From Branchiostoma lanceolatum (Eukaryota; Chordata; Leptocardii; Amphioxiformes; Branchiostomatidae): DNA of 64,000 nucleotides. Location: positions 5,318,001 to 5,382,000 of the forward strand of contig NC_089724.1 in the NCBI RefSeq assembly GCF_035083965.1, given 5' to 3'. The notes beneath the pieces are model-generated. The model worked only from the letters and a program-made list of their open reading frames with translations. It was not told where the DNA came from and ran no database searches. Made by a program: the position numbers and the translations under genes. Every line of letters starts with the position of its first letter. The stretch's first letter is position 1. Of this stretch, positions 6,808-47,149 are shown piece by piece.

Positions 6808-9638
6808 ATGCCGATCGAAACCGAGGACACGACGACGTCTTCCGAAGATACCCCGAAGGGAGCCGACGGAGAAGTCAGCGAAGATGCAGTCGTGTGGACG
6901 AAAGAGACCATTTATGAGATGATGCGGAGTCGATCTCGGGACCAGAATTTTCACTTCGTGGGCAGGGACATTGTTATAACGGAAAGGAACGTCGGCGACA
7001 TGACGGCCATTGGAACCAAACTGTGGACAACTGTGAGTAACCGTGAATTATAATTATAATTAGTCATTTTAAGGTTGGCATATTGTTGTAAAATAAGGTA
7101 TTTTATACCAACGGGTAGATAAATCGGTCATACAGATACAGAAGGTTTTTTTTTTTTTTTAACACAAACTTAAAGACCTGGCCAACGTTTCTGCAACTGC
7201 TCATCTACCTCCGTGAATAGATTCATCAGGTTGGCAGTCACTGGACAACATTTTTTTCACAACCAAGTATTTTGTTCAAGCCGACGTTTCGGTGACCGTC
7301 TGTATCCCTCCATTGGCAGTACTGACTGTTTCTGTATCGCACTGTAACTAGGTATGCAACTGCTACGTTTGGGACCGCATTTGATAGCAGCGACACCTAG
7401 CTGCAGTGCGAAAAAGAACCGTCAGTATAGTCCAGAGGAATATGACAGACGGTCACCGAAACGTCGACTTGAATACTTCAAAATTGTACTACTTTCTGCT
7501 TAGCACTCGACACTTAAGTGGAACACGCAGTACTGTCAGTGCCACTAGCCCCCTGTTGTAGTATTATCTGTGCTTGCATAGCTGTGTGGCTCAAGGGCTA
7601 AGGAAACGGTGATGGGTGATGGCCTATACACCATATGATGTGCGAAAGACGTGAACTTCTCTATTCTATATGCGTATGTCCTTCCCAGGCTGAGGTGTTC
7701 AGTGAGTATCTTGAGAGCGGCGTCTTCCCCTTGAAGGATAAGAAGGTGGTAGAACTTGGCTCTGGGACGGGGCTGGTCGGGATTGTGACAAGTCTGTTGG
7801 GTAAGTGTGTCGACAATAACTGTAACGTTAACATTATGCCACACAGTAACGAACGTCGCACAATTGTTTTAGTCAAGGCTGTGACAGAAACGACAGGTCT
7901 AAAAGGTTGTACAACCTTTTCTGTCACAAGACAGTTGAATTTCGTAAGACGCATCCACGAGTTTCCTAAGGATGCCTCTAATCTGTCGTGTGACAAATCT
8001 GACGTAGGTCTGGAACCTGATAAACTGTACAGTGTGGCTTTAGTATGTCATCTTCTCACGTGCACGTAAACTATATCATTTTCGAAATAACTTGTGATAT
8101 CACCGACCAAGACTGCAAATAGCAACGACTTTTCTTTGAAGGTCTGACGTGTTCTCGCCTGCTCTAGGTGCTGATGTGACCTTGACTGACCTTCCTGACA
8201 TCATCTATAACCTTGAACCTAACGTGGCGATCAACACCCGGGGAGTCAAGCATCCTCCAACAGTAGGTATCACACCGAAGTTTCCCCTGTTTCCTCCATC
8301 TGCTCGGCACAGAAAATTTTGTATAGAAGCTGACGTCACGTGTCCGTCAGGTCACGTGTCCTAAGTGATTTGTCATTCTGGGCTGATGAAGGCCGCTGTG
8401 CAGCCAGTCCGCATTTTAGCTATTTCGCTATGATTCTTTGCTATCAGATGTAGAAAGTTTGCTCTCAATATCACTCAATAGAGCAGAAACTCTAGTTTTT
8501 ATGATATTAAGTCTTCCGATCAAAAGGATCCTTCAGCTACAAGTGGTCCAAGCTCTTTATGCACGCAGTAACTGTAAAGATATCGATTAGAATGGTGAAG
8601 AAGAAAGCTAAATCGTAATGGTGAGAAAAGATCCCACGAGATTATGTCGAGATAGCATTTGTTTGACTTTGGTTGTTCAGCCCAGAAGTGATGGAGTTTG
8701 CATGTAAACGTTGAAGTATAGTATTTTTTCTGGACCAGATAACGTCTTCTTTGTCCCCCTCCAGGTGTGCCCCCTAGCGTGGGGCGTGGACCTGCATGCT
8801 TTCCCCAAGGCAGCACACTATGACTACGTCATCGGGAGTGACCTTGTCTATGACGCGGAGGTTTTTGAAGGATTGATCCAGACCATAAAATACCTGAGCG
8901 ATGCAAACACAACCATTTTGCTGGGTACGCTTCACCTATGACTATTTTTTGCCCTCTCATTCGATTATTTGCCTGCGTCTTCCGATAGCGTAAGAAAGTA
9001 TCATTCTGAAACGGTTGCTCTGAGAATGCTCGGAGATGCATCGGTTTTCCCACCGAAAAACGTTATTCTGACGTTTCAGCACGAGTATCATTAGGTTTGC
9101 TCACATAGCTCAACAGGTAGCAGTCTCACAGTTGAGCTCCTGGTTCTGATGATGAGTTGCTAACTGGGAAATCCCGGTTCGATCCTGTTCAGGATATCGG
9201 TTGGGGCTGCACCCGTCTTTCGGAAGGGACGTGAAATAGATGTCCCGCAATCGAGGAGGTGCCTCGAGCACGTAAAGGGGAAGGGCTGCCAACCCCTCCC
9301 TGTGAAGATATAACAGTTACGTACCCTGCTATTGAAACAGCAAGGAAACGTATTGCCCTATGTGCCGCGAGACACTACAAGGGTCTGAATGAACGAACGA
9401 ACGAATGTAAGCAGGATTTTCTGAAATGATCATTTTCTTGATTCTCTGCTTACACTACAAATACATTTGCACTGATCAAGTCGTCATTTTCTCTTCTTCC
9501 ACAGGTTTTCACCTGCGGGTTCCTGACCGGGACCTGAAGTTTCTCAACATGTTCACTAAAGAGTTCAACGTTGTCAAAGAACACCAGCTGCCCAACCAGG
9601 GGAAAGCCGTCAGGCTGTACGAGGCCAGGACAAAATAA
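6808..9638 (+). CDS. METTL21-family protein-lysine methyltransferase (five exons)
   Basis: Coding exons are 6808-7032, 7689-7800, 8168-8262, 8765-8924 and 9505-9638, all with GT/AG borders and consistent phases (0, 1, 0, 1). They give 241 residues, close to the 218-230 usual for this family. The AdoMet-binding motif I is VELGSGTGLVG (96-106), followed by the second acidic strand VTLTDLP (D120). The family DxxY motif is SDLVYD (169-174). The C terminus LYEARTK resembles the end of human METTL21A. These Methyltransf_16 enzymes trimethylate lysines on soluble proteins such as HSP70 chaperones, eEF1A or VCP. The substrate here cannot be told from sequence, and the extended acidic N terminus (residues 1-30) is unlike METTL21A. 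The ATG has a purine at -3. Intron 1 holds a hairpin MITE and intron 4 a SINE. Confidence 0.9.
7277..7471. mobile_element. Hairpin MITE in METTL21 intron 1
   Basis: The two ends are near-perfect inverted repeats of about 27 bp: GACGTTTCGGTGACCGTCTG on the left and CAGACGGTCACCGAAACGTC on the right. The interior is also partly self-complementary (CTGTATCGCACTG..CAGTGCGAA). It has no coding capacity. This is a non-autonomous DNA element inside the intron, so its insertion did not break the gene. Confidence 0.75.
9099..9410 (+). mobile_element. tRNA-derived SINE, copy 1 (METTL21 intron 4)
   Basis: Starts with a tRNA-like head carrying a Pol III A-box-like word (TAGCTCAACAGGTAGCAG) and a B box (GGTTCGATCC near 9176). 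The body shares GTCTTTCGGAAGGGACGT and GAAACAGCAAGGAAAC with the copies near 9940, 19045 and 49858. It ends in a (GAAC)n tail. It is the longest copy in the window. Confidence 0.85.
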
Positions 9639-11282: not shown

Positions 11283-12799
11283 CTAACGGAAAGCAAGCTC
11301 ATGCAAATCGAGCGCGCACTGCTCATGCTTGTCTATGAAAAGACACAGGGCGCTCCAGGCGAGACCGAAAGAGAAGGGAGCTGTCACAAGACCGCCGACA
11401 AAAGGGACTGCCACGTCAATGGCAGCATCCACTGTGAGAGCTGTTACATAGAGGTGAAGACTAGCCTGAGCTGTCATAAGCTGCCTGAGACTTTGCAGAT
11501 CGATTTCACCTTGGAGGAATTGGATGACTCCGTTGAGAATAGACAGTCTGTCATCCACGAAGCGCTGCAACATCCTCGCGTCCTTGCTTGTCGTGGTAGC
11601 CAGCTTACGCACTGAAGCCTCGTTAAGACCGAATCCTCTTTTGAACAGCAACATCGTCGTCAACATCGTACCTACAATGGGGGACAAAGTAAAAGTTAAT
11701 TCTATCGTATTGTTGAAATGGTAGAATCGTCAAATTTAAATATATAAGCGAGTCTTCGGTTAAAGTTTGTCTTTGGTTCAAGTTTAGTGCCCTGCTAGCC
11801 GTGACAGAAAACCATTCCATACAATTCGATCCTGTAACAATGTCACATACCTGCGTTGACGAATGTTCCTGCATACGGTATGACCCCTCCAGCAGCCACC
11901 CCCAGCGCTACTTTCCAGGCATGGCTCTTGTAGATGTTAGCCTTGGCCTTTACCATGGTTGGCGAGTAGTCTGTGGTGGTCGTCATGAGCAACATCTTCT
12001 GCTGGATGTCCAGCTGCTTTAGAATGGCTTCCTTCAGTGCAGCGGCACCCCAACGGCCGGCCTGGATATGGCGCAATTTGCCGCAGATGACAAAGACATC
12101 GCCGATGTCCACGCGTCCATATCCAATAGTTTCCAGTTTGGTGACGTAGTCCTCACGCTGGAACTGAAGGAGTCGTTCCTCACCCTCCTCCTGCCCCCCT
12201 GCAAAGTATTCCGGGTCGTCATCTTGTTTGTCTTCGACATCCCTATCGAACTTGGAGCGGACGAACAGGACCTTTTTGCCCATTTCTTTGGCCACCTTGG
12301 CGATCCACACGGCGTTGTCGTGGACACGACCACTTGTGAAGACGAGGAAAACATTGCATTCCTTCATCTTGTCGCCAAACATCCTTGCGTATTCTTTCGT
12401 ATTAAAGGTGGTCGGTTGCAGAGATCCGCTCTGTAATTTGAAGAGAGCCCCTGGAAAGTCCACCAGGATGACGTGGTCGTGTTCGGGATGAGGGTACTCG
12501 TTAGGCTCGGTCGTGGTTTCGGTGGTGCCGACGTCTGCTGCCTCCTTTTCGTTAGCCCTTAGCTCTCTGAAGGAGTTGATAAAGGTGGATTTTCCTGCAC
12601 CCGAGACACCTACGATGCCAATGCGGACGTACGCCTGCCCCATCCATGTTTCCTCCTGATCGTACTGCCCAATCTCTTTCTGCAGCATCTTTAGCATTTC
12701 CTCCGGAGGCTGGTCATCACTCACGTCCCTGACGTTGTCTGCAAACCTTCGGAATACCTCCTGCTCATCGGGGCCAAGGTCATCTCTTTTGATCTCCAC
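11283..12799 (-). CDS. Immunity-related GTPase (IRG)-like protein; 5' coding exon not found
   Basis: Two exons are visible on the minus strand: 12799-11851 and 11671-11283, joined in phase 1 through a GTATGT donor and a CATTGTAG acceptor. They encode about 445 residues, the usual IRG size. Numbering from 12799, G1 is GVSGAGKST (64-72), G2 lies in GTTETT (91-96), G3 is DFPG (114-117) and G4 is RSKFD (181-185). A helical C-terminal region follows, including VDAAIDVAVPFVGGL. In vertebrates IRGs are interferon-inducible and act on pathogen vacuoles or mitochondria; the amphioxus role is unknown. The codon at 12797-12799 is GTG, and a pyrimidine-rich acceptor (TTTTTTTTCTTGAACACAG) sits immediately upstream. 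The true ATG is therefore probably in an earlier exon. Residues 1-35 could alternatively be untranslated, with a start at Met35. Confidence 0.85.
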
Positions 12800-12869
12800 A
12801 CTGTGTTCAAGAAAAAAAACTTGAAAATCGTAAACCTCACTACTCTGAAGTGTGGTTAACGTAGCATAC

Positions 12870-12960
12870 TTTCCGAGCAGTGGTTAGGCACCGGCTAGTT
12901 CTTGACGTCTTTTAGGCGTTTTTGACGGGCTTTGACGTTTTCTTTACGTAGCCAAGTGGT
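12870..12960. mobile_element. Fragment of MITE family B
   Basis: Contains CCGAGCAGTGGTTAGGCACC, then GGCTAGTTCTTGACGTCTTT and AGGCGTTTTTGACGGGCTTT. These match the start of the composite palindrome near 23945-24060 (CCAAGCAGAGGTTGGGATCC, then GGCTCGTTTTTGACGTGTTT). It lies directly upstream of the visible IRG-like exon. Confidence 0.55.
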
Positions 12961-17874: not shown

Positions 17875-19769
17875 TAAGTAAAAAACAATACTTCACTCAA
17901 TCTATTCAATTGAGGCAAAAGTGCACATGGACAGGAGAAATGGTTTTATTTTAGACTCTAAACTACAAATCAAGGGGAGAGCGACAGGGACGGACTCAAT
18001 TTGAGTCTGTGACTGAGTGTGAGGCCTGAGCCCCATACGGCGCCATTGAAAATTTTCGAAGAAAGCACCATGCACTGTTCTTCTGCCATCCTCTGTCATC
18101 AGTACACTACAGCTCTGTAGATACCTTACTGACGAAACAGAAAAAAATAGATAAGTGTCTCACCATCCTCGATGTTTAACCTGTTTGTTCCCAGGAAGTC
18201 CAGGATGAAGTTCTTGTACACCTGTTTGGTCTTGGCGATGTCCAACATTTCCTGACAGGCGTCAAGGGCGTCCACATTACTGAAGCCCATCTTCTGGAGC
18301 TGAGCAAGACATGCAAAAAAAACAAGGCAATTAGAGATGACAGACTTAACCCCCTCGGACAGTATTACAAGCCTCTCCTTGCAGAACATGCAAAACTGCA
18401 GTGTGCCCTCTTGACATGACATACATAACTGCAGGGCACAGAGACGCAGACAGACACACAGGCGCTAGGCAGACAAGCCAAAAAACATGTAACAAATTTT
18501 ACAGAATGTCAATGTCTGGAGCAAACATCCCTTAATAATTAGTTATGCTGTCAGATAAAGAATACAGAAATGACATATTGAAGATTCTTTGAAAAATTAC
18601 AACAGACCGGCTTCTTATGAATCAGGGCTGGCTTTATCACCAAAATACCATTTATGATACTTTGGAAGGACAGCAATATTGTCTTTTATCAGTATGTTGG
18701 ATATGTTAGAAAGTGCCAACAGCGTTAGTGCAACTCGTCAGAAGTCTATACAAAATTGCTATTTCTTTTAACCATGCGATGCAGCTCATGTGAGATTTAT
18801 CATTTTGGAATGAAACAGACAAGTTCAGTGTATGACCTCCTCTCCAACAAACCCTGTCCCCGCCGCTACATCCAGAACGCGAGCGTCACTTCTGTTCCCC
18901 AGAGCCTTCACTAACGTCTCGGCTACCTGGCGGGGTCCCTTGTACTGGGACGTCTTCATGTCCTAAACGTTAACATATGAGTGAAAGTTTAAAAAAAAAA
19001 GTTAAAGCTCTTCCCACACTATACGATGTATCAGGCGTATCGTTAGTTCAGACCCTTCGGTAGTGTCGAGTGGCACACTAGTAGGGCAGCAAGTTTCCTT
19101 GCTGTTTTAGTAGCAGGGTGTATTTCTACAGGGAGGGTGGTTGCTATCCCTTTCTCGACCACGGGACCCCCATTTTACGTCCCTTTTGAAAGACGGGCGC
19201 AGCCCCAACCGAGATGTCCTGACCTAGGATTGAACCGGGGTCTCCCAGTTACCAACACATTGGAACCTTAACTTTGAGGCTGCTACCTGTTGAGCTAAAG
19301 GGAGTCACCCCTATACGGTGTATAGGGCGGCGCCATCTCCATTTCCTTGTGCCACACAGCTGTACAATCACGAATAGTACTACAGAAGGGGGCTAGTCCG
19401 CTGGTAGCACAGGTAGGAACTTCCACGTACCGAGTGCTTATTGCAAAGCAATTGCAAGGAAGCAGGAGGTACTATTTCTTAAGTCTTTGTCATCGTCGAA
19501 TGACTTTGTCATCGAAAAAAAAAAAACTCATAACATACAATTTGCATATTTGGCCTATTTATATATCATAATTTGACATATTTGGCCAATTTGCATATCT
19601 AGGTTGGGAACAGTCAGATTAAAGATGTTATTCCACATCATACGGTCCTACATACCTGCTCGTACAGGGGTGCCCATGTACGGTACAGCTCCTGAGACTG
19701 CTCCCTCGGGATGCCAGGGGTTAAAACATGCCACAGTCTGTGATGAACGTCCTCAGGTGTGTCCGCCAT
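16936..19769 (-). CDS. METTL27-like: METTL27 (WBSCR27)-like methyltransferase (five exons)
   Basis: Minus-strand coding exons are 19769-19656, 18962-18837, 18299-18164, 17710-17618 and 17117-16936, with phases 0, 0, 1, 1. They give 216 residues; the human protein has about 245. The family signature near the N terminus, YRTWAPLYEQD, matches the YDRWAPDYDQD region of METTL27. AdoMet motif I is VLDVAAGTGFVG (67-78), followed by the acidic strand VDALDACQEML (D93). The late motif GAFCEGHVKCDCLEELVRVV runs into KPGGFVCVGIR, as in class I methyltransferases. The vertebrate substrate is not established, so the role is stated only as an AdoMet-dependent methyltransferase. The start ATG lies in GACCATGGCGG, a good Kozak and YY1-like context. 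Exon 2 ends at an atypical donor (GAG|GTCATA), but the protein alignment across it is continuous. Confidence 0.88.
17791..17874. repeat. (CA)n microsatellite in METTL27 intron 3
   Basis: An uninterrupted AC/CA run of about 84 bp between exons 3 and 4 of the METTL27-like gene. The Cys-Val open frame on the minus strand is an artefact of it. Confidence 0.97.
19045..19310 (-). mobile_element. tRNA-derived SINE, copy 3, minus strand (METTL27 intron 1)
   Basis: Reverse complement of the SINE at 9099-9410. Read on the plus strand it has GCAGCAAGTTTCCTTGCTGT, then ACGTCCCTTTTGAAAGACGG, the inverted B box GGATTGAACC, and the inverted A-box head GCTACCTGTTGAGCTAAAGG. It lies between exons 1 and 2 of the METTL27-like gene, in the same orientation as that gene. 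Confidence 0.85.
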
Positions 19770-25956: not shown

Positions 25957-26080
25957 ATCTCCAAGCAGATGTTGGGGTGTGAGATTACAACATTCTCTAA
26001 CTCCCAGCTTTCTCTCACAGTTACAACAACAGCCAGGCTTCTCTGACAACCTGACCCACCCCTGACGTCTGCTTGGAGAG
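25957..26080. mobile_element. MITE family B ending 8 bp before the BBIP1 start codon
   Basis: The left end TCTCCAAGCAGATGTTGGGG and the right end CCCCTGACGTCTGCTTGGAG are inverted repeats of the same type as the ends at 22588-22757. The start codon of BBIP1 is at 26089, so this element probably forms part of its 5' leader. Confidence 0.6.
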
Positions 26081-26088
26081 TACCCATC

Positions 26089-26892
26089 ATGCCTGGCGAG
26101 AAGCAAGGTGGAGCGTACAAAGAGGTTCTGCCCAAGCAGGGCCAGCTGCACACGGAAGACAACCCCACCATGGTCCTCTGTAAACCCAAGATCCTCCCCA
26201 TGAAGTCTGTGACTCTGGAGAAGTTGGACAAGATGCAGAGAGAGGCTCAGGAGAAACTGAAGGCCCAGGAGGCAGAACAGGAGGTTCGGCTCCACTTCTG
26301 TAGAATTGTATTGAACCTCCTTGATAGAACGAATGGGTAGTGGCGTTATTTTGGTGTAATGGTTAGGGTGTTTGGCCCAAATACAGATGAACACTGGAAT
26401 ATTAAAGGGCAATACACCAGTAATACATATTTCAGGTTTCAAACGAGACTGCATACCCTTAATACAATGGTCTCTTCCTGGGAATGCATGTACAATATAC
26501 TTCTAAAGCAAATAAAATAACTGAGTTTGATGTATGTATATCTCTTTAGCTTTGGGTTCAGTAAGGGCGTTGCCTGGCCTGATAGCCTGGCTGGTAGACT
26601 GGCCTGATAGGCAGCCCATACTTTTTTGCAAACCCTTCTAAACCGTTCATTTTCTGCCCAGGCCAAGATGCTGCAGTCAGGAGGTTGCCTGGCCGGTAGA
26701 CTGGCCTGATAGCCAGCCCATACTTTTCTAGAAACCCTTCTAAACCCTCCTTTTTCTGCGCAGGCCGAGATGCTGCAGTCAGGAGGTACCAACAGTTTTG
26801 AGCCGAGCACCTTGTCTGACTTTAACACTGAGGGTGCTGCGGGGGAGACGGACAGGTACACCATGGGACAACAGGACAGCGAGTATCACTGA
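26089..26892 (+). CDS. BBIP1: BBSome-interacting protein 1 (BBIP1/BBIP10), two exons
   Basis: Exon 1 is 26089-26283 (65 residues) and exon 2 is 26764-26892 (42 residues plus stop), joined in phase 0; total 107 residues against 92 in human. The N-terminal half is clearly BBIP1: [10 protein letters not shown] (11-20), [11 protein letters not shown] (27-37) and [10 protein letters not shown] (41-50) align with the human protein. BBIP1 is a small helical subunit of the BBSome, the coat that moves membrane proteins into and out of cilia; human loss causes Bardet-Biedl syndrome. The acidic Ser/Thr/Gly-rich C-terminal tail has no counterpart I recognise. The exon 1 donor (GAG|GTTCGG) is weak. The acceptor of exon 2 is duplicated 102 bp upstream. 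A MITE ends just before the start codon and another begins 6 bp after the stop. Confidence 0.88.
26599..26795 (+). repeat. 102-bp tandem duplication carrying the BBIP1 exon 2 splice acceptor
   Basis: Two units begin at 26599 and 26701 with CTGGCCTGATAG, run through AAACCCTTCTAAACC and end in TCTGCnCAG followed by exon sequence GCCnAGATGCTGCAGTCAGG. The upstream copy therefore has a complete pyrimidine tract, AG and the first 24-27 bases of exon 2. Using it would enter a frame that closes after about 15 codons ([15 protein letters not shown], stop). Confidence 0.85.
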
Positions 26893-32850: not shown

Positions 32851-33112
32851 CTCCATTTTGATGAAAATGATTTTTGTCAATACAGCTGGCTTCTCTGATT
32901 TAGTTATAGGGTTGTTGGATCTTTTTTTAATAGAAGATTGTAGGTCAGAGAAATGACTATGTATTATGAGAACATTTCGATGACATTAATCTTTATTTCA
33001 ATATCAATGAATCATTTGATTAGAATGATGAATAGTTTCAGCATCACATTATTTGTGCTTTTTTTAGTCTGTGAATAAATAAAACCAGTAAAATTGTACA
33101 GTTCTGGAACAA

Positions 33113-33247
33113 CTTAAGTTTTGGATTGAGTAAAATGATACATTTTTGGAAGAACTAAAATTATGCATTTTTGGATTAAGTAAAATGATACATTTTTGGA
33201 AGAACTAAAATTATGCATTTTTGGATCAAGTAAAATTATACATTTTT
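33113..33247. repeat. 50-bp tandem repeat, about 2.7 units
   Basis: The unit TAAAATGATACATTTTTGGA / AGAACTAAAATTATGCATTT starts at 33131 and 33181, with a partial unit at 33231. The copies are almost identical, so the duplication is recent. Confidence 0.9.
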
Positions 33248-33249
33248 GC

Positions 33250-34180
33250 AAACAGTGAATGGGTATATACATGTATGGTTTACTGTCATCGCATAATGGT
33301 AAGTACTTTCCATGCGGCCATGCCTCAAAAGAAAATTTAACGAAAGTATGAAAGGAAATTAAGAAAAGATACCAAGAATACATCCATGAATAGAGATGAG
33401 GCAAAAACAGGTGAAAATTCCATGGCACAATCTTCAAGTATATAAAGGCATGACAACACAGAGAGAGAGACCAACCAAATATAGTCAAGTAGATTTATAT
33501 TCCTTAACTCTACGATGTTAGTGACTAAACATTGTCCTTTCATAGTACTGTATGCCTCAATTTCAACTACAAAAACATGGTTAATCTTGTATCTACATGT
33601 AGCAGCCTTATGTATACATTTCCCATGGGGATGTGTTCTGAACTTTAATACCTCTACAAGTCTGTTACTGTACATTCAAGGCTACCATTTTAGACTTTTT
33701 ACTGCCATCTTTCACATTCAGTTCCCCACAAGAAAGTACATGCTATGCACCTCATATTTGCTTTTGGACTTACCTTGCAAGTTTTTAGACAATTTTAAAA
33801 ACTTCCAACAATCTAATAATCATCTTTACTTGCACGCACATTCTTGCCCACATGGGCAAAAGGTAAAATATCATTACTTGTACTGTAGTCCTTAGTGAAC
33901 AATAGGAGAAACAGAACCTATGCCACGGCTTGATCTATTGTTTACAAAACAGTTAAACATATAAAGCAATACTACCACTAAATGTAGCATTTACATATCT
34001 CTTCCCTCTTCTAAAAATGAGTGTATAAGAATTCAGAGAGTAATGAAGCCCACAAAGGCCTCTTATACTTTTTATTTTCTTGGAAAATAAAGAAAGTAAA
34101 TGTAAAAGGTAGAGTATCTGCTATAGGTGAAGAGCTTTAACAGGATTTTACTCGTGTATTTTCCCAATGTTCATTTCAAA
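33250..34180. other. AT-rich stretch, nothing recognised
   Basis: Open frames of 110-126 codons occur on both strands (33337-33675 minus, 33515-33895 plus). They overlap each other, lack splice sites and have no recognisable product. I treat them as chance. Confidence 0.35.
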
Positions 34181-34184
34181 AGGT

Positions 34185-35880
34185 TTGAACAAAGAGGTTA
34201 AAAAAGTGAAAGCTTCTTGTTTGCTGACAATATTGCTAAGATGGTCAAAAAGCCAAGGTCCTGTTTAAATGACGAATGGTTTGAAGAAAGAGGTTTAAAA
34301 AGTGAAAGTTTCTCTGTCTTAGAGGTGAAAGCTGAGAATATTGCTAAGATGCTTTAAAATATGAATTGTTTGAACAAAGAGGTCTAAAATAAAGTGAAAG
34401 TTTTACCTGTGCTAAGATGGTTTTCCCCTTAATTGAGGTTTACAAAAGTGAAAGTTTCTGATGTGCTATCAATATGGTTTAAAAAGCGGAATGTTTCTCC
34501 TGTGCTGAGATGGCTTTCCCCCTTTCTGGAGGTTTAAAAAGGGAAAGTTTCTCATTGCTAAGATGGTTTGCCCCTTTATTGAGGTTTTTAAAAGTGAAAG
34601 TTTCTCTGGTGCTAAGAGGGTTTGCCCCTTTTTTTTAGAAAGTGAAAGTTTCTCCTGTGCTTAGATGATTTGTTCACTTTTTTCTAGGCTTGAAAAGTAA
34701 AAATTTCTCCTGTTCTAAGATTGGTTGTCCCTCTTTTATTGAGGTTTAAAAGTTTCTCCTATGCTGAGAATATTGCTAAGATCGTTTAAAAGATTAATTG
34801 TTTGAACAAAGAGGTTTAAAAGGCAAAAGTTTCTCTTGTGCTAGATGGTTTCCCCCTTTCTTGAGGTTTAAAAAGTGAAAGTTTCGCTGTGCTTAGACGT
34901 TTCAACAGTGAAAATTTCTCCTGTGCTAAGATGGTTTGCCCTCCTCTATTGAGGATTAAAAAGTGAAAGTTTTACCTGTGCTATCAAAGATGGTTTAAAA
35001 AGTAAAAGTTTCTTCTGTCCTAAGATGGTTGGCTCCCCTTTATTCAGGGTTAAAAAGTGAATGTTTCTCCTGTGCTAAAATGGTTTGCTCTCCTCTATTG
35101 AGGTTCAAAAAATGAAAGTTTCTCCTGCGCTATGAAACACGGTTTAAAAAGTGAAAGTTTCTCCTGTCCTAAGATGGTTTGCCCCCTTTATCATTTAGAA
35201 ATTGAAAGTTTCTCCTGTACTAAGATGGTTTCCCCCCCCCCCCTCTATCCAGGATTAAAAAGTGAAAGTTTCTTCTGCGCTATCAAAGATGGTTTAAAAA
35301 GTGAAAGTTTCTCCTGTCCTATCTTAAGATGGTTGACTCCCCTTTATTCAGGGGACAAAGTGAATGTTTCTCCTTTCCTAAGATGGTTTGCCCCCTCCCC
35401 CAATTGAGGATTAACAAGTGAAAGTTTCTCCTGCGCTATTAAACACGGTTTAAAAAGTGAAAGTTTCTCCCTGGTAAGATTGCTTGCCCCCTTTATCATT
35501 TAAGAATTCTGATGTACTATGATGGTTTGCCCCCCTCTATTGAGGATTAAAAAGTGAAAGTTTCTCCTCTGCTAAGATGGTTTATAAGGTTTGAAAAGTG
35601 AAAGTTTCTCCGTGCTAAGATGGTTTGTCCGAGGTTTGCCCCCTTTATCATTTAAAAATTGAAAGTTTCTCCTGTGCTAAGATGTCTAAAATGGCTTTCC
35701 CCTCTATTGAAGATTAAAAAGTGAAAGTTTCTCCTGTGCTAAGACGGTTTAAAAAGTGAAAGTTTCTCCCGTGCTAAGATGTCTAAGATGGCTTTCCAAT
35801 CTATTGAAGATTAAAAAGTGAAAGTTTCTCCTGTGCTAAGACGGTTTAAAAAGTGAAAGTTTCTCCCGTGCTAAGATGGT
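34185..35880. repeat. Degenerate array with IRF/PRDM1-like core in each unit
   Basis: About 30 units of roughly 40-65 bp. Each has the core AAAAGTGAAAGTTTCTCC, then TGTGCTAAGATGGTTT, then a variable GCCCCCTTTATTGAGG spacer. The core is almost invariant from 35050 on (for example near 35148, 35297, 35452, 35550, 35717, 35815 and 35850) and more degenerate at the left. AAAGTGAAAGT matches the known PRDM1/Blimp-1 site and is close to the IRF/ISRE half-site pair. AAGATGG resembles the core of the YY1 site. The open frames across it are by-products of the repeat. Confidence 0.85.
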
Positions 35881-35884
35881 TCGC

Positions 35885-36046
35885 CCCCTGCATCGCCGCC
35901 TTCAGCCGGGGTGACCAAAGGTCCAGTGCATTGTGGGACGTCCTTGATCCAACATGGCGGATTGTTTTGAAAGTGGTGGCGGTAGCTGATCAGTCCGTGC
36001 CTCGGGCGGTCCACTCCAGCGATCCAACTTCTGCTCTCTCTAGCAA
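35885..36046 (+). promoter_or_regulatory. Promoter-like segment and candidate first exon
   Basis: Immediately after the repeat array the DNA becomes GC-rich. TGCATTGTGGGA (35928-35939) resembles the reverse of the ZNF143/THAP11 site. AACATGGCGG (35951-35960) is a YY1 site of the kind found just downstream of TATA-less start sites. A strong donor AGCAA|GTAAGT follows at 36046/36047. The ATG in the YY1 site opens a frame of only 11 codons, so the exon is probably a 5' leader. Confidence 0.5.
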
Positions 36047-36049
36047 GTA

Positions 36050-36560
36050 AGTCAACTACACAACCATCAAATCATCTGTACTAGTCGTGTGCGTGTCGGG
36101 GGACGTATTCTGAGGTAATTTGAAGGGAGTGCCGGTCAGCAGACGATGTGATTTTTCCTCATGCACATCTTTTTTTTTTTGGAAGGGCCAGGCTGGGCAG
36201 AGGTATCTCTTCGCGCCGCCCCGGCCAAAATCTAGCTTCCCGCGCAAATTTCTCATCTCGCCGTCAAAATCTGCAACTTTCTGGGAAGTTTTGGGGCTGG
36301 GTGTTGTAGGTTTTTGTGTAGGTTTGGGGGTAGGTTTGTGTGGGATTTCGTTGGTGGTGTGACGGCAGGGGGTTGGGCCGGCCGCGCCGTGGTCCCACCG
36401 GCCGGCCAGGGTTCGCCCCACCGCCGCTCGCCATATGCACGGCCAGGCGGTGCCTCGGCTCCTACCGCCCGGCCAAGCTGCTGCACTGCTAGAACAGTTT
36501 CCCCTTCTAGTCTTAACATTACCATCTTAGCTGTGATGTCTTAAGGGTTTGTTTTCCTCA
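36050..36560. other. GC-rich candidate intron 1 (CpG-island-like)
   Basis: The segment at 36180-36480 is the most GC- and CpG-rich stretch of the window (GGGCCGGCCGCGCCGTGGTC and similar). It is consistent with a CpG island extending into a first intron. A Pro/Arg-rich minus-strand frame here has no splice support. Confidence 0.45.
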
Positions 36561-36561
36561 G

Positions 36562-36643
36562 AAATCAGGACAAGGACCTTCTTAAGGTATCAGGTCACTC
36601 TCTAGATTACTTCACACGTTCATCTGACGTTACAGCAGTTATG
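36562..36643 (+). other. Candidate second exon of an unrecognised transcript
   Basis: Bounded by a good acceptor (TTTGTTTTCCTCAG) and a good donor (GTTATG|GTAAGA). It is 82 bp long, 515 bp after the candidate exon 1 donor, and ends in ATG exactly at the donor. If this is real, a start codon could lie at the exon end with the coding sequence further right. If the donor is not used, the frame stays open to a stop at 36725. I recognise no protein family in it. Confidence 0.35.
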
Positions 36644-36749
36644 GTAAGAAAACATGGACCATTCAATTCATCTTCGTCAGAGAAGCTAGCTATACTTCGT
36701 TCTCTTAGAGATGTGAAGCTTGGTTAAGGAATTTTGCAAGTTTTAGTGA

Positions 36750-37090
36750 GATTTTAAGCATGTCCGTTTTTTGAAATTTATTCTTTAGTTCAAAATCATG
36801 ACCCCTCCCCCCTTTTGGGACCCCCCTGATTTTCCCCCCACCTTTGCAAGCCTCAGACTGTGTATACCTGACACTCTCAACACACACTAGCGTGCTTGTA
36901 CAAGGGTAGGCTTCCAGCTGGTCTGGAGGAATTAATAACGAAAACTTGTGCCAAAAGAGCCTACCAGGGACCCCTGCCGCCTGTGGTATATGGATACAGT
37001 GTGTCACCTAAAGATGGATAAAAGCTTATACAATGTATTAAATCTAAATGCAAACAAACACAGAAAAAAGGAAAGAAAATTGTAAGCTTG
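36750..37090. other. Intergenic or intronic DNA, nothing recognised
   Basis: Contains a run of C-rich words (CCCCTCCCCCCTTTTGGGAC) near 36803 and no open frame with exon signals. Confidence 0.4.
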
Positions 37091-44569: not shown

Positions 44570-46250
44570 ATGCTTACAAGGAAGGAAATGAAAGAAATAG
44601 CTTGTGTAGGGAGAAATTTAGAAGATAGTTAGATACCGGAAGTGTTTTACTTAACAAAGGCCGGTGGCAAAAAGCCTCTTGATTGACAGTATAAGATTGT
44701 CTGGTTGTAGGCTCCGTTGAGGACTGAGGATGGTATATTGGAGGTGTTAAGTTTGTGGAGCTATGCGTCGCCTTTTCTTCGCCCTCCCCTCGGAGTTTGC
44801 GATGGTTGGTAGCCGCGGCGACTGCGGCGCTGATCATCGTCTCTCCGGTGTCCTCATCATCCCTACTGTCACTCATCGTTACGGCCTGCACTGATGACAA
44901 GCTCAGATACAATGAGGCAGTTTGCATGCACAGAGCCCCCGCCACTGTCTCCCTGGTAGCATTCAACCATGTTGGATTTGTGTAAAACCCCTCGGCGGAC
45001 GCGCCTCTGTAGGCCGAGCGCCCGGCTCATTATTCTGGCTGCCGGCGATCCGGGGATTTGAGCGAATCTGCGTTTTGCTTGTTAGTTATCCCCCCGCTTG
45101 TCGGGAGTGTTTCTATTCCCAGGAAAGACACAAACAGTGATGAATGCAGGTTTGGCCTCCCAATTATCAGTGCCTCTGCCTCCAGGCCAGTAGGTTCCTT
45201 GCATTTTCCTCCTTAACAGGGGGAGGTGCGATTTTTACTACATGCAATTAAGGAAATGGCCGATAACGACCCGGGAAGGCCTTCCTTCCTACAATCAAGG
45301 GAAGCATTAAAAGGCACAGTCCATCTGTGGCAGTAAAAGCTTTGGCGTGAGTTTTGCTGGCCCCGCTGCTCTTTATTGCGCTCTCTCTCTCAAGGTTACC
45401 CTGTCCCTCCTACCTTGGAAATGACATTGTACCAATTATCCCGTAATCTCGGTAGAAAGGAGGGATTGTTCTATGTGGTGAAGTTTTCCAGGCAGGGGTT
45501 CCAGTCCACCACGAGGTCTGGGGAGAGTGTCTGCCTCTCTCCCTCATTTGAATATGAACAGGGGTATTTTCCCCTCATAAATTGCAGTAATTATTCCGGA
45601 TGAATGGAACCCCTGCCTGAGTGTGTGTAGCTGGAAAGCGATGTGGACACCGCCGCAGAGAAATCACGGCACAGGAGGAAGCCATTTGCCGGCAATCTCT
45701 GGCCAGGCTTAGCGAGAGAGTTCCTTCGGTCTGCTGTTAAAGCGGACATCTGCCATGTGTGCTGGAATGTGATTTTTCCCCCCACCCAGAAGCGTCGTGC
45801 ATAGTTCTCAGAAGGTGACTTTCTCAGGTAGGCGACTTTGAAGGTTCAAGACACTCTTTTTCCCTCCCGGCAATTGATTGATAACGTTTATCTCAAACAT
45901 TGTCTCAACAGCTTTCTCCACGTTTCCCTTCAAGAAAGTTGCTCAAGGAATTTTCCCCATATCACAAGCAGTCCACGGAGTAATGATTAAAAGTAGTATA
46001 TTTATCTTACAGACCACCCAAACCTCTCTCATGTCTGGCCCTATATGTACGTGCCTTAGGCTATTGTTGGGAACTGAAAGGACTTGTAATGCCCGGCATT
46101 GACCAACCAAAATAGCAACGGATACCGCTCTTTTGTGACGGGGTTCACCGAAATCATTTTGCCCGCCGAGTCTCACGTGAAATTCCGTGGCAGTGTAACA
46201 CGTAGCGTAGATGTAGAGAATTGAAACTTGAAGACAAAATGGCATATCAG
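44570..46250. promoter_or_regulatory. Candidate conserved noncoding island 5
   Basis: Continuation of balanced, complex sequence after the MITE, ending where AT-rich DNA resumes near 46260. Short frames on both strands show no exon structure. Confidence 0.3.
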
Positions 46251-46574: not shown

Positions 46575-47149
46575 CAGGGCTCGAAATTCATTTTTGGAAA
46601 TAGGTGCACTGGTGCACCCAACCCAAAAAAATTAGGTGCACAGAAATAATTTTGGGTGCACCACAAAATAAAGTTGAATGTTAGCAAAACATAATTACAA
46701 AGTTTAACGCTCTTAAGTCAGTTAAGAACTTCAATATGTAATTCTATAGCTACATGACTTGTAACTTCGAAATTTCAAACAAGTAATACATCAAAGAAAG
46801 TACAACACTGTTACAAAAGGTTATTTTGCTTTTTCTGATACAAATTACAAAGTTTAACGCTCTTAAGTCAGTTAAGAACTTCAATATGCAATTCTATAGC
46901 TACATGTAACTTCGAAATTTCAAACAAGTAAAACATCAAAGAAAGTACAACACTGTTACAAAAGGTTATTTTGCTTTATCTGATACTTACATTTCAAGAA
47001 TATTCTGCATACTAGTGTACAATAGTACCTTTACCCTATAGCCTACAAAAATATCTTGGTGCACCAGTGCACCCACAGTCAAAAATTAGGTGCACAGCTC
47101 CAATTTTGGGTGCACACAGGTACACATGCACCCACTATTTCGAGCCCTG
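46575..47149. mobile_element. hAT-like non-autonomous element with internal 150-bp duplication
   Basis: The ends are inverted: CAGGGCTCGAAATTCATTTT at left, ATTTCGAGCCCTG at right. The subterminal parts repeat GGTGCAC/GTGCACC words several times on each side (AGGTGCACTGGTGCACCCA, GGTGCACCAGTGCACCCAC). The AT-rich interior is a tandem duplication of about 150 bp (AATTACAAAGTTTAACGCTC at 46693 and 46843). The CAGGG terminus fits hAT elements. The flanks (CATTGTTG, ATTGTAGG) are at best an imperfect 8-bp duplication. Confidence 0.7.

Follow-up and report, generated by a model that had tools for sequence, protein, structure and literature searches.

The window analysed here, a 64-kb stretch of lancelet DNA, contains a tandem array at 34180-35890. 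Its units number about 32, measure 33-96 bp and share the plus-strand orientation. The array is marked by a 19-mer core, AAAAAGTGAAAGTTTCTCC. When up to 5 mismatches were allowed, 30 core matches were found in the array at 34201-35848, and 8 of the 30 were exact. The scan of both strands of the window gave 33 plus-strand matches in total, including the 30 inside the array. Outside the array the core was matched at four places, three on the plus strand and one on the minus strand (27079). With a limit of 4 mismatches, the sole match outside the array in the whole window was at 18996 (4 mismatches). The degenerate tandem array of about 30 IRF/PRDM1-like sites claimed in the earlier note is therefore present at the correct location, with 30 cores within 5 mismatches. 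The label IRF/PRDM1-like for the array motif is based on consensus strings rather than matrix scores. The main features of the array are as follows.

34180-35890, plus strand: the entire array (~32 units, 33-96 bp each)
34180-35049, plus strand: distal half, 15 units with more diverged cores (consensus identity 0.865)
35050-35890, plus strand: proximal half, 17 units with cleaner cores (consensus identity 0.952)
34997-35592, plus strand: ~300-bp repeat in two copies (34997-35295 and 35296-35592), seen by alignment
35654-35847, plus strand: 97-bp direct duplication (first copy 35654-35750), 5 differences in 97 sites
35503-35548, plus strand: unit that lost 9 core bases and retained its spacer, seen by unit comparison and alignment

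The exact 11-mer AAAGTGAAAGT occurs 17 times in the 1.7 kb of the array and on neither strand of the remaining window. When 1 mismatch was allowed, 26 copies were counted in the array versus 4 elsewhere in the window. The units were cut at each core, and two of the 32 (34745 and 35503), whose cores are degraded, were placed by position. Counted in this way, AANNGAAA is intact in 23 of the 32 units and AAAGTGAAAGT in 17. The 15 distal units keep AANNGAAA in 9 cases and AAAGTGAAAGT in 7, and the 17 proximal units in 14 and 10 cases, respectively. The motif density in the array is far beyond chance. Because the copies are related by duplication, the ~30 motif copies have one origin, not thirty.

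These counts bear on a functional explanation, in which the array is a homotypic cluster. Many of the cores would be bound by IRF or PRDM1-family factors, which would control how the promoter near 35.95 kb responds, and the cores would be kept by selection while the spacers drift. The 17 exact 11-mers in 1.7 kb, with none elsewhere in the window, and the location of the cleanest cores on the promoter side both favour this explanation.

The units of the array fall into length classes of ~55, 39/35 and 51-61 bp, which follow each other in ordered succession. Long units of 73-96 bp occur besides in the distal half, where three of them start at 34201, 34297 and 34745 (96, 92 and 73 bp, respectively). 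TRF gave periods of 35, 39, 54-55, 94, 97 and 149 bp over the array. Several core variants recur across repeat copies, as copying predicts: TGAATG is shared by the units at 35052 and 35355, AAATTG by the units at 35197 and 35654, and GTTTTACC by the units at 34389 and 34958. The proximal unit at 35503, with its spacer retained but 9 core bases gone, likewise favours passive copying. The array runs head to tail, and its 32 units of 33-96 bp lie within the ~10-100 bp range of minisatellites. A nested repeat structure is a typical product of unequal exchange or slippage. The 97-bp duplication is recent and may hint at copy-number variation between individuals. Other tandem repeats are located at 46693-46986 (unit ~145 bp), 26585-26787 (~102 bp), 33087-33248 (unit 25/50 bp) and 1387-1570 (~35 bp); with these four more repeats, minisatellites are frequent in the window.

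A degenerate array with higher-order structure could also be a dispersed satellite or a transposon-borne repeat, which would be present at many loci and lie beside a promoter by chance. This origin is quite unlikely, given that the array is the single one in the 64-kb window, with the match at 18996 as the only extra core within 4 mismatches. Inverted repeats point in the same direction: six pairs occur in 33600-37000, and the array is flanked by none of them. Scans for exact patterns in viral contigs and prokaryote genome contigs returned nothing; these are non-animal collections and are uninformative on copies in the source genome.

When all units were compared with a single consensus, the core had an identity of 0.911 versus 0.832 for the adjoining spacer. 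The difference was larger in the proximal half (0.952 versus 0.840) than in the distal half (0.865 versus 0.823). This contrast is overstated, since each inherited spacer class enters the measure many times and the units were cut at the core; core-anchored cuts bias such comparisons toward a better-kept core. Duplicated segments were also compared in six pairs, which were picked by hand; alignment ends were trimmed, and a site was left out when it belonged to the core of one copy but to the spacer of the other. The pooled substitutions were 24/261 (9.2%) in the core versus 46/445 (10.3%) in the spacer (P=0.70). In one of the pairs only 34904-34996 aligned to 34693-34787, and 34818-34903 was thereby lost. 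Excluding CpG sites gave 23/260 in the core versus 42/427 in the spacer. In simulation, the power of the pooled test was 0.69 for a core rate half of the spacer rate and 0.96 for a core rate of 0.3 of it. A strong core constraint, with the core changing at no more than 0.3 times the spacer rate, is therefore unlikely given the pooled test. The earlier note had described spacers that vary around a nearly constant core. That description holds against a single consensus, most clearly in the proximal half, but the difference shrinks to 9.2% versus 10.3% in the pooled pairs, and part of it arises because the spacers form several inherited classes.

The core rate was below the spacer rate in five of the six pairs, and the exception was the distal pair 34389/34536. 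When this pair was removed, the core had 14/207 substitutions versus 38/367 in the spacer (P=0.17), so the pooled equality is partly due to this single pair. The proximal pairs gave 9/159 in the core versus 25/258 in the spacer (P=0.20), and the distal pairs 15/102 versus 21/187 (P=0.46). In eight more pairs, which overlap the six and were left unpooled, the core was less diverged in 6 and more diverged in 2. Indels in the six pairs were rarer in the core, with 6 for its 261 sites versus 25 for the 445 sites of the spacer (P=0.055). Parsimony on the tree of all units gave 2.42 steps per column for the core versus 3.35 for the spacer (one-sided P=0.098). Within unit classes, with 27 of the 32 units included (34589, 34637, 34692, 34818 and 35848 omitted), the values were 38/407 (0.093) versus 89/699 (0.127) (one-sided P=0.046); the core was lower in four of the five classes, and class L showed the opposite (0.206 versus 0.121). 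These results indicate a weak but consistent lean toward a better-kept core, in which selection is not clearly evidenced. Equal divergence of core and spacer, named in the earlier note as an observation against a selected cluster, is what the pooled pairs show (P=0.70), but the lean in five of the six pairs and in both tree tests departs from it. Between the selected cluster and the neutral satellite that had been offered as alternatives, the neutral option fits best, although not decisively.

The positions kept within the core were also compared. Among 8-mers, conservation is highest for AAAGTTTC, which occupies core positions 9-16 and overlaps the motif. The IRF-type AAGTGAAA ranks 7th among 29 windows in conservation, and the PRDM1-type 11-mer ranks 6th among 26. 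The positions specified by IRF took 1.83 steps versus 2.69 in the remaining core, and those specified by PRDM1 took 2.0 versus 3.0. In GAAA, the leading G (G8) and the final A (A11) are expected to matter to both IRF and PRDM1; each has 4 inferred changes. The conservation peak is displaced from the IRF/PRDM1 positions, although these are still less variable than the remaining core. Helical phasing of successive core spacings at 10-10.5 bp was absent (P ~0.5). For the functional cluster, the lower core rate in five of the six pairs and four of the five unit classes (one-sided P=0.046) and the fewer core indels (P=0.055) are points in support. However, the pooled pair test, the peak on AAAGTTTC rather than on the motif, the changes at G8 and A11 and the lack of helical phasing all argue against it, and we consider it rather unlikely.

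The sequence on the promoter side of the array was also examined. Two promoter-like elements lie 40-60 bp downstream of the array, and a possible splice donor follows.

35928-35938, plus strand: GCATNNTGGGA element, unique in the window when both strands are counted
35950-35960, plus strand: CAACATGGCGG element, with a looser form at three other plus-strand places
36047-36052, plus strand: GTAAGT, possible splice donor of a putative first exon, read from the sequence

GCATNNTGGGA at 35928 is presumably ZNF143/THAP11-like, and CAACATGGCGG at 35950 is taken to be YY1-like. AAGATGG, which recurs in 15 of the 32 array units, resembles the CAACATGGCGG element, and the likeness is possibly due to chance. 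The GC content rises from 0.32-0.40 across the array to 0.48-0.62 at 35751-36500, and the CpG observed/expected ratio rises from 0-0.40 to 0.79-0.90. In the 33-39 kb region examined, ratios of 0.86-1.06 were also observed in four 250-bp steps (37501, 38251, 38501 and 38751). Because these steps at 37.5-39 kb reach such values, a high CpG ratio alone is no promoter mark. A rightward-firing promoter beside the array is plausible from the sequence.

Coding and RNA searches were carried out around the array. When 35.8-64 kb was translated in six frames with X in place of stops, Pfam gave no family at E 0.01, a search that short exons could escape. PDB sequence searches also gave nothing at E 0.01; they covered 35.8-64 kb in the three plus frames and 35.8-50.2 kb in the three minus frames. 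The lack of a recognisable downstream gene in these searches is a further point against the functional cluster. An open frame at 44577-45026 on the minus strand, when searched by itself, weakly matched KCNQC3-Ank-G_bd (E 0.0093) and BAF1_ABF1 (E 0.097); both were below the curated cut-off and were not credited. ARAGORN in its bacterial setting found no tRNA, and no Rfam family reached the gathering score.

The Pfam scans also covered 1-14.4 kb and 22.4-36.8 kb. Weak matches there to DNA_pol_phi, CDC45 and DDHD are likely caused by acidic or simple-repeat frames. At 11846-12883 the minus strand has a 346-aa open frame that matches the interferon-inducible GTPase family (IIGP, E 4.5e-32), and next to it lies another minus-strand open frame, at 11286-11729, without Pfam match. 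The IIGP frame is 21 kb from the array, which is too distant to connect the two on present evidence. On the plus strand, BBSome subunit 10 was identified at 26047-26337 (BBIP10, E 1.1e-27), as would be expected of animal DNA, and a lysine methyltransferase-like exon at 7620-8066 (Methyltransf_16, E 2.5e-06).

The array was compared with known systems. The 'mirage' minisatellites of amphioxus, in the Adh3 and globin genes, are reported as diverged repeats at exon-intron boundaries that show length instability (PMC3087553). For a window from amphioxus, they count as a precedent in favour of a minisatellite. The array is like mirages in its association with a gene, its diverged tandem copies, its units of differing length and the signs that copies within the cluster have been homogenised (PMC3087553). 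Unlike mirages, which span exon-intron boundaries, it appears to be located 5' of the putative first exon, with no such boundary identified inside it (PMC3087553). In human, minisatellite VNTRs are reported to be linked to the expression of nearby genes (PMC8096271, PMC8024321). Like them, the array is a tandem repeat near a gene with potentially variable copy number, known here from one sequence (PMC8096271, PMC8024321). Among the literature matches listed, none of the titles and abstract openings describes this array, which is not proof of its being unpublished.

A functional precedent is a tandem repeat in human that carries 45 PU.1 motifs and is reported to be a MORC3-repressed enhancer of IFNB1 (PMC13373173), and it favours the functional cluster. 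Like this element, which is known in human and mouse, the array is a tandem repeat with a dense cluster of motifs for a single factor (PMC13373173). The IFNB1 element carries the PU.1 motif, and its binding, enhancer activity and repression have been shown, whereas the array is IRF/PRDM1-like and known by sequence alone (PMC13373173). In the same source, out of ~1000 human clusters that each exceed 15 PU.1 motifs, only ~50 were accessible and bound without MORC3, a proportion that speaks against the functional cluster (PMC13373173). Motif-rich tandem repeats can thus matter, as the IFNB1 element works, but most of the surveyed clusters are closed in this account (PMC13373173). In the strongest version of a regulatory role, a lancelet promoter would have gained, through tandem amplification, an IRF/PRDM1 array of 30 sites. 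The array would serve the promoter as a strong enhancer that can be induced or repressed, an independent invertebrate parallel to the MORC3-controlled IFNB1 enhancer, with copy number setting the strength of the response. This version is very improbable.

The array is probably an ordinary minisatellite with nested higher-order repeats, in which the motif was passively multiplied from a founder unit. The founder unit of ~55 bp (or 92-96 bp) would already have carried the IRF/PRDM1-like 11-mer. Growth from it may have proceeded by repeated unequal exchange or replication slippage and would have yielded the nested higher-order repeats of ~97, 149 and 300 bp, with the 11-mer copied passively along with the founder unit. 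The promoter-side units would be cleaner mainly because the latest copying rounds were located there. The tandem and higher-order structure, the recent 97-bp duplication and the lack of a significant core-spacer difference in the pooled pairs are observed, whereas the way the array grew, its founder, the timing and the absence of selection are inferred. Even as a minisatellite with a passenger motif, the array may have an incidental effect on the promoter next to it, because clusters of motifs in tandem repeats can work as enhancers, as reported for IFNB1 (PMC13373173).

A motif found 30 times in a tandem array represents one founding event that was copied, not 30 independent pieces of evidence, a point that calls for caution. 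If the motif cluster is functional, it would show tandem amplification building a dense regulatory cluster of immune type, and it would provide a natural copy-number series for testing the number of sites against the response of the promoter.
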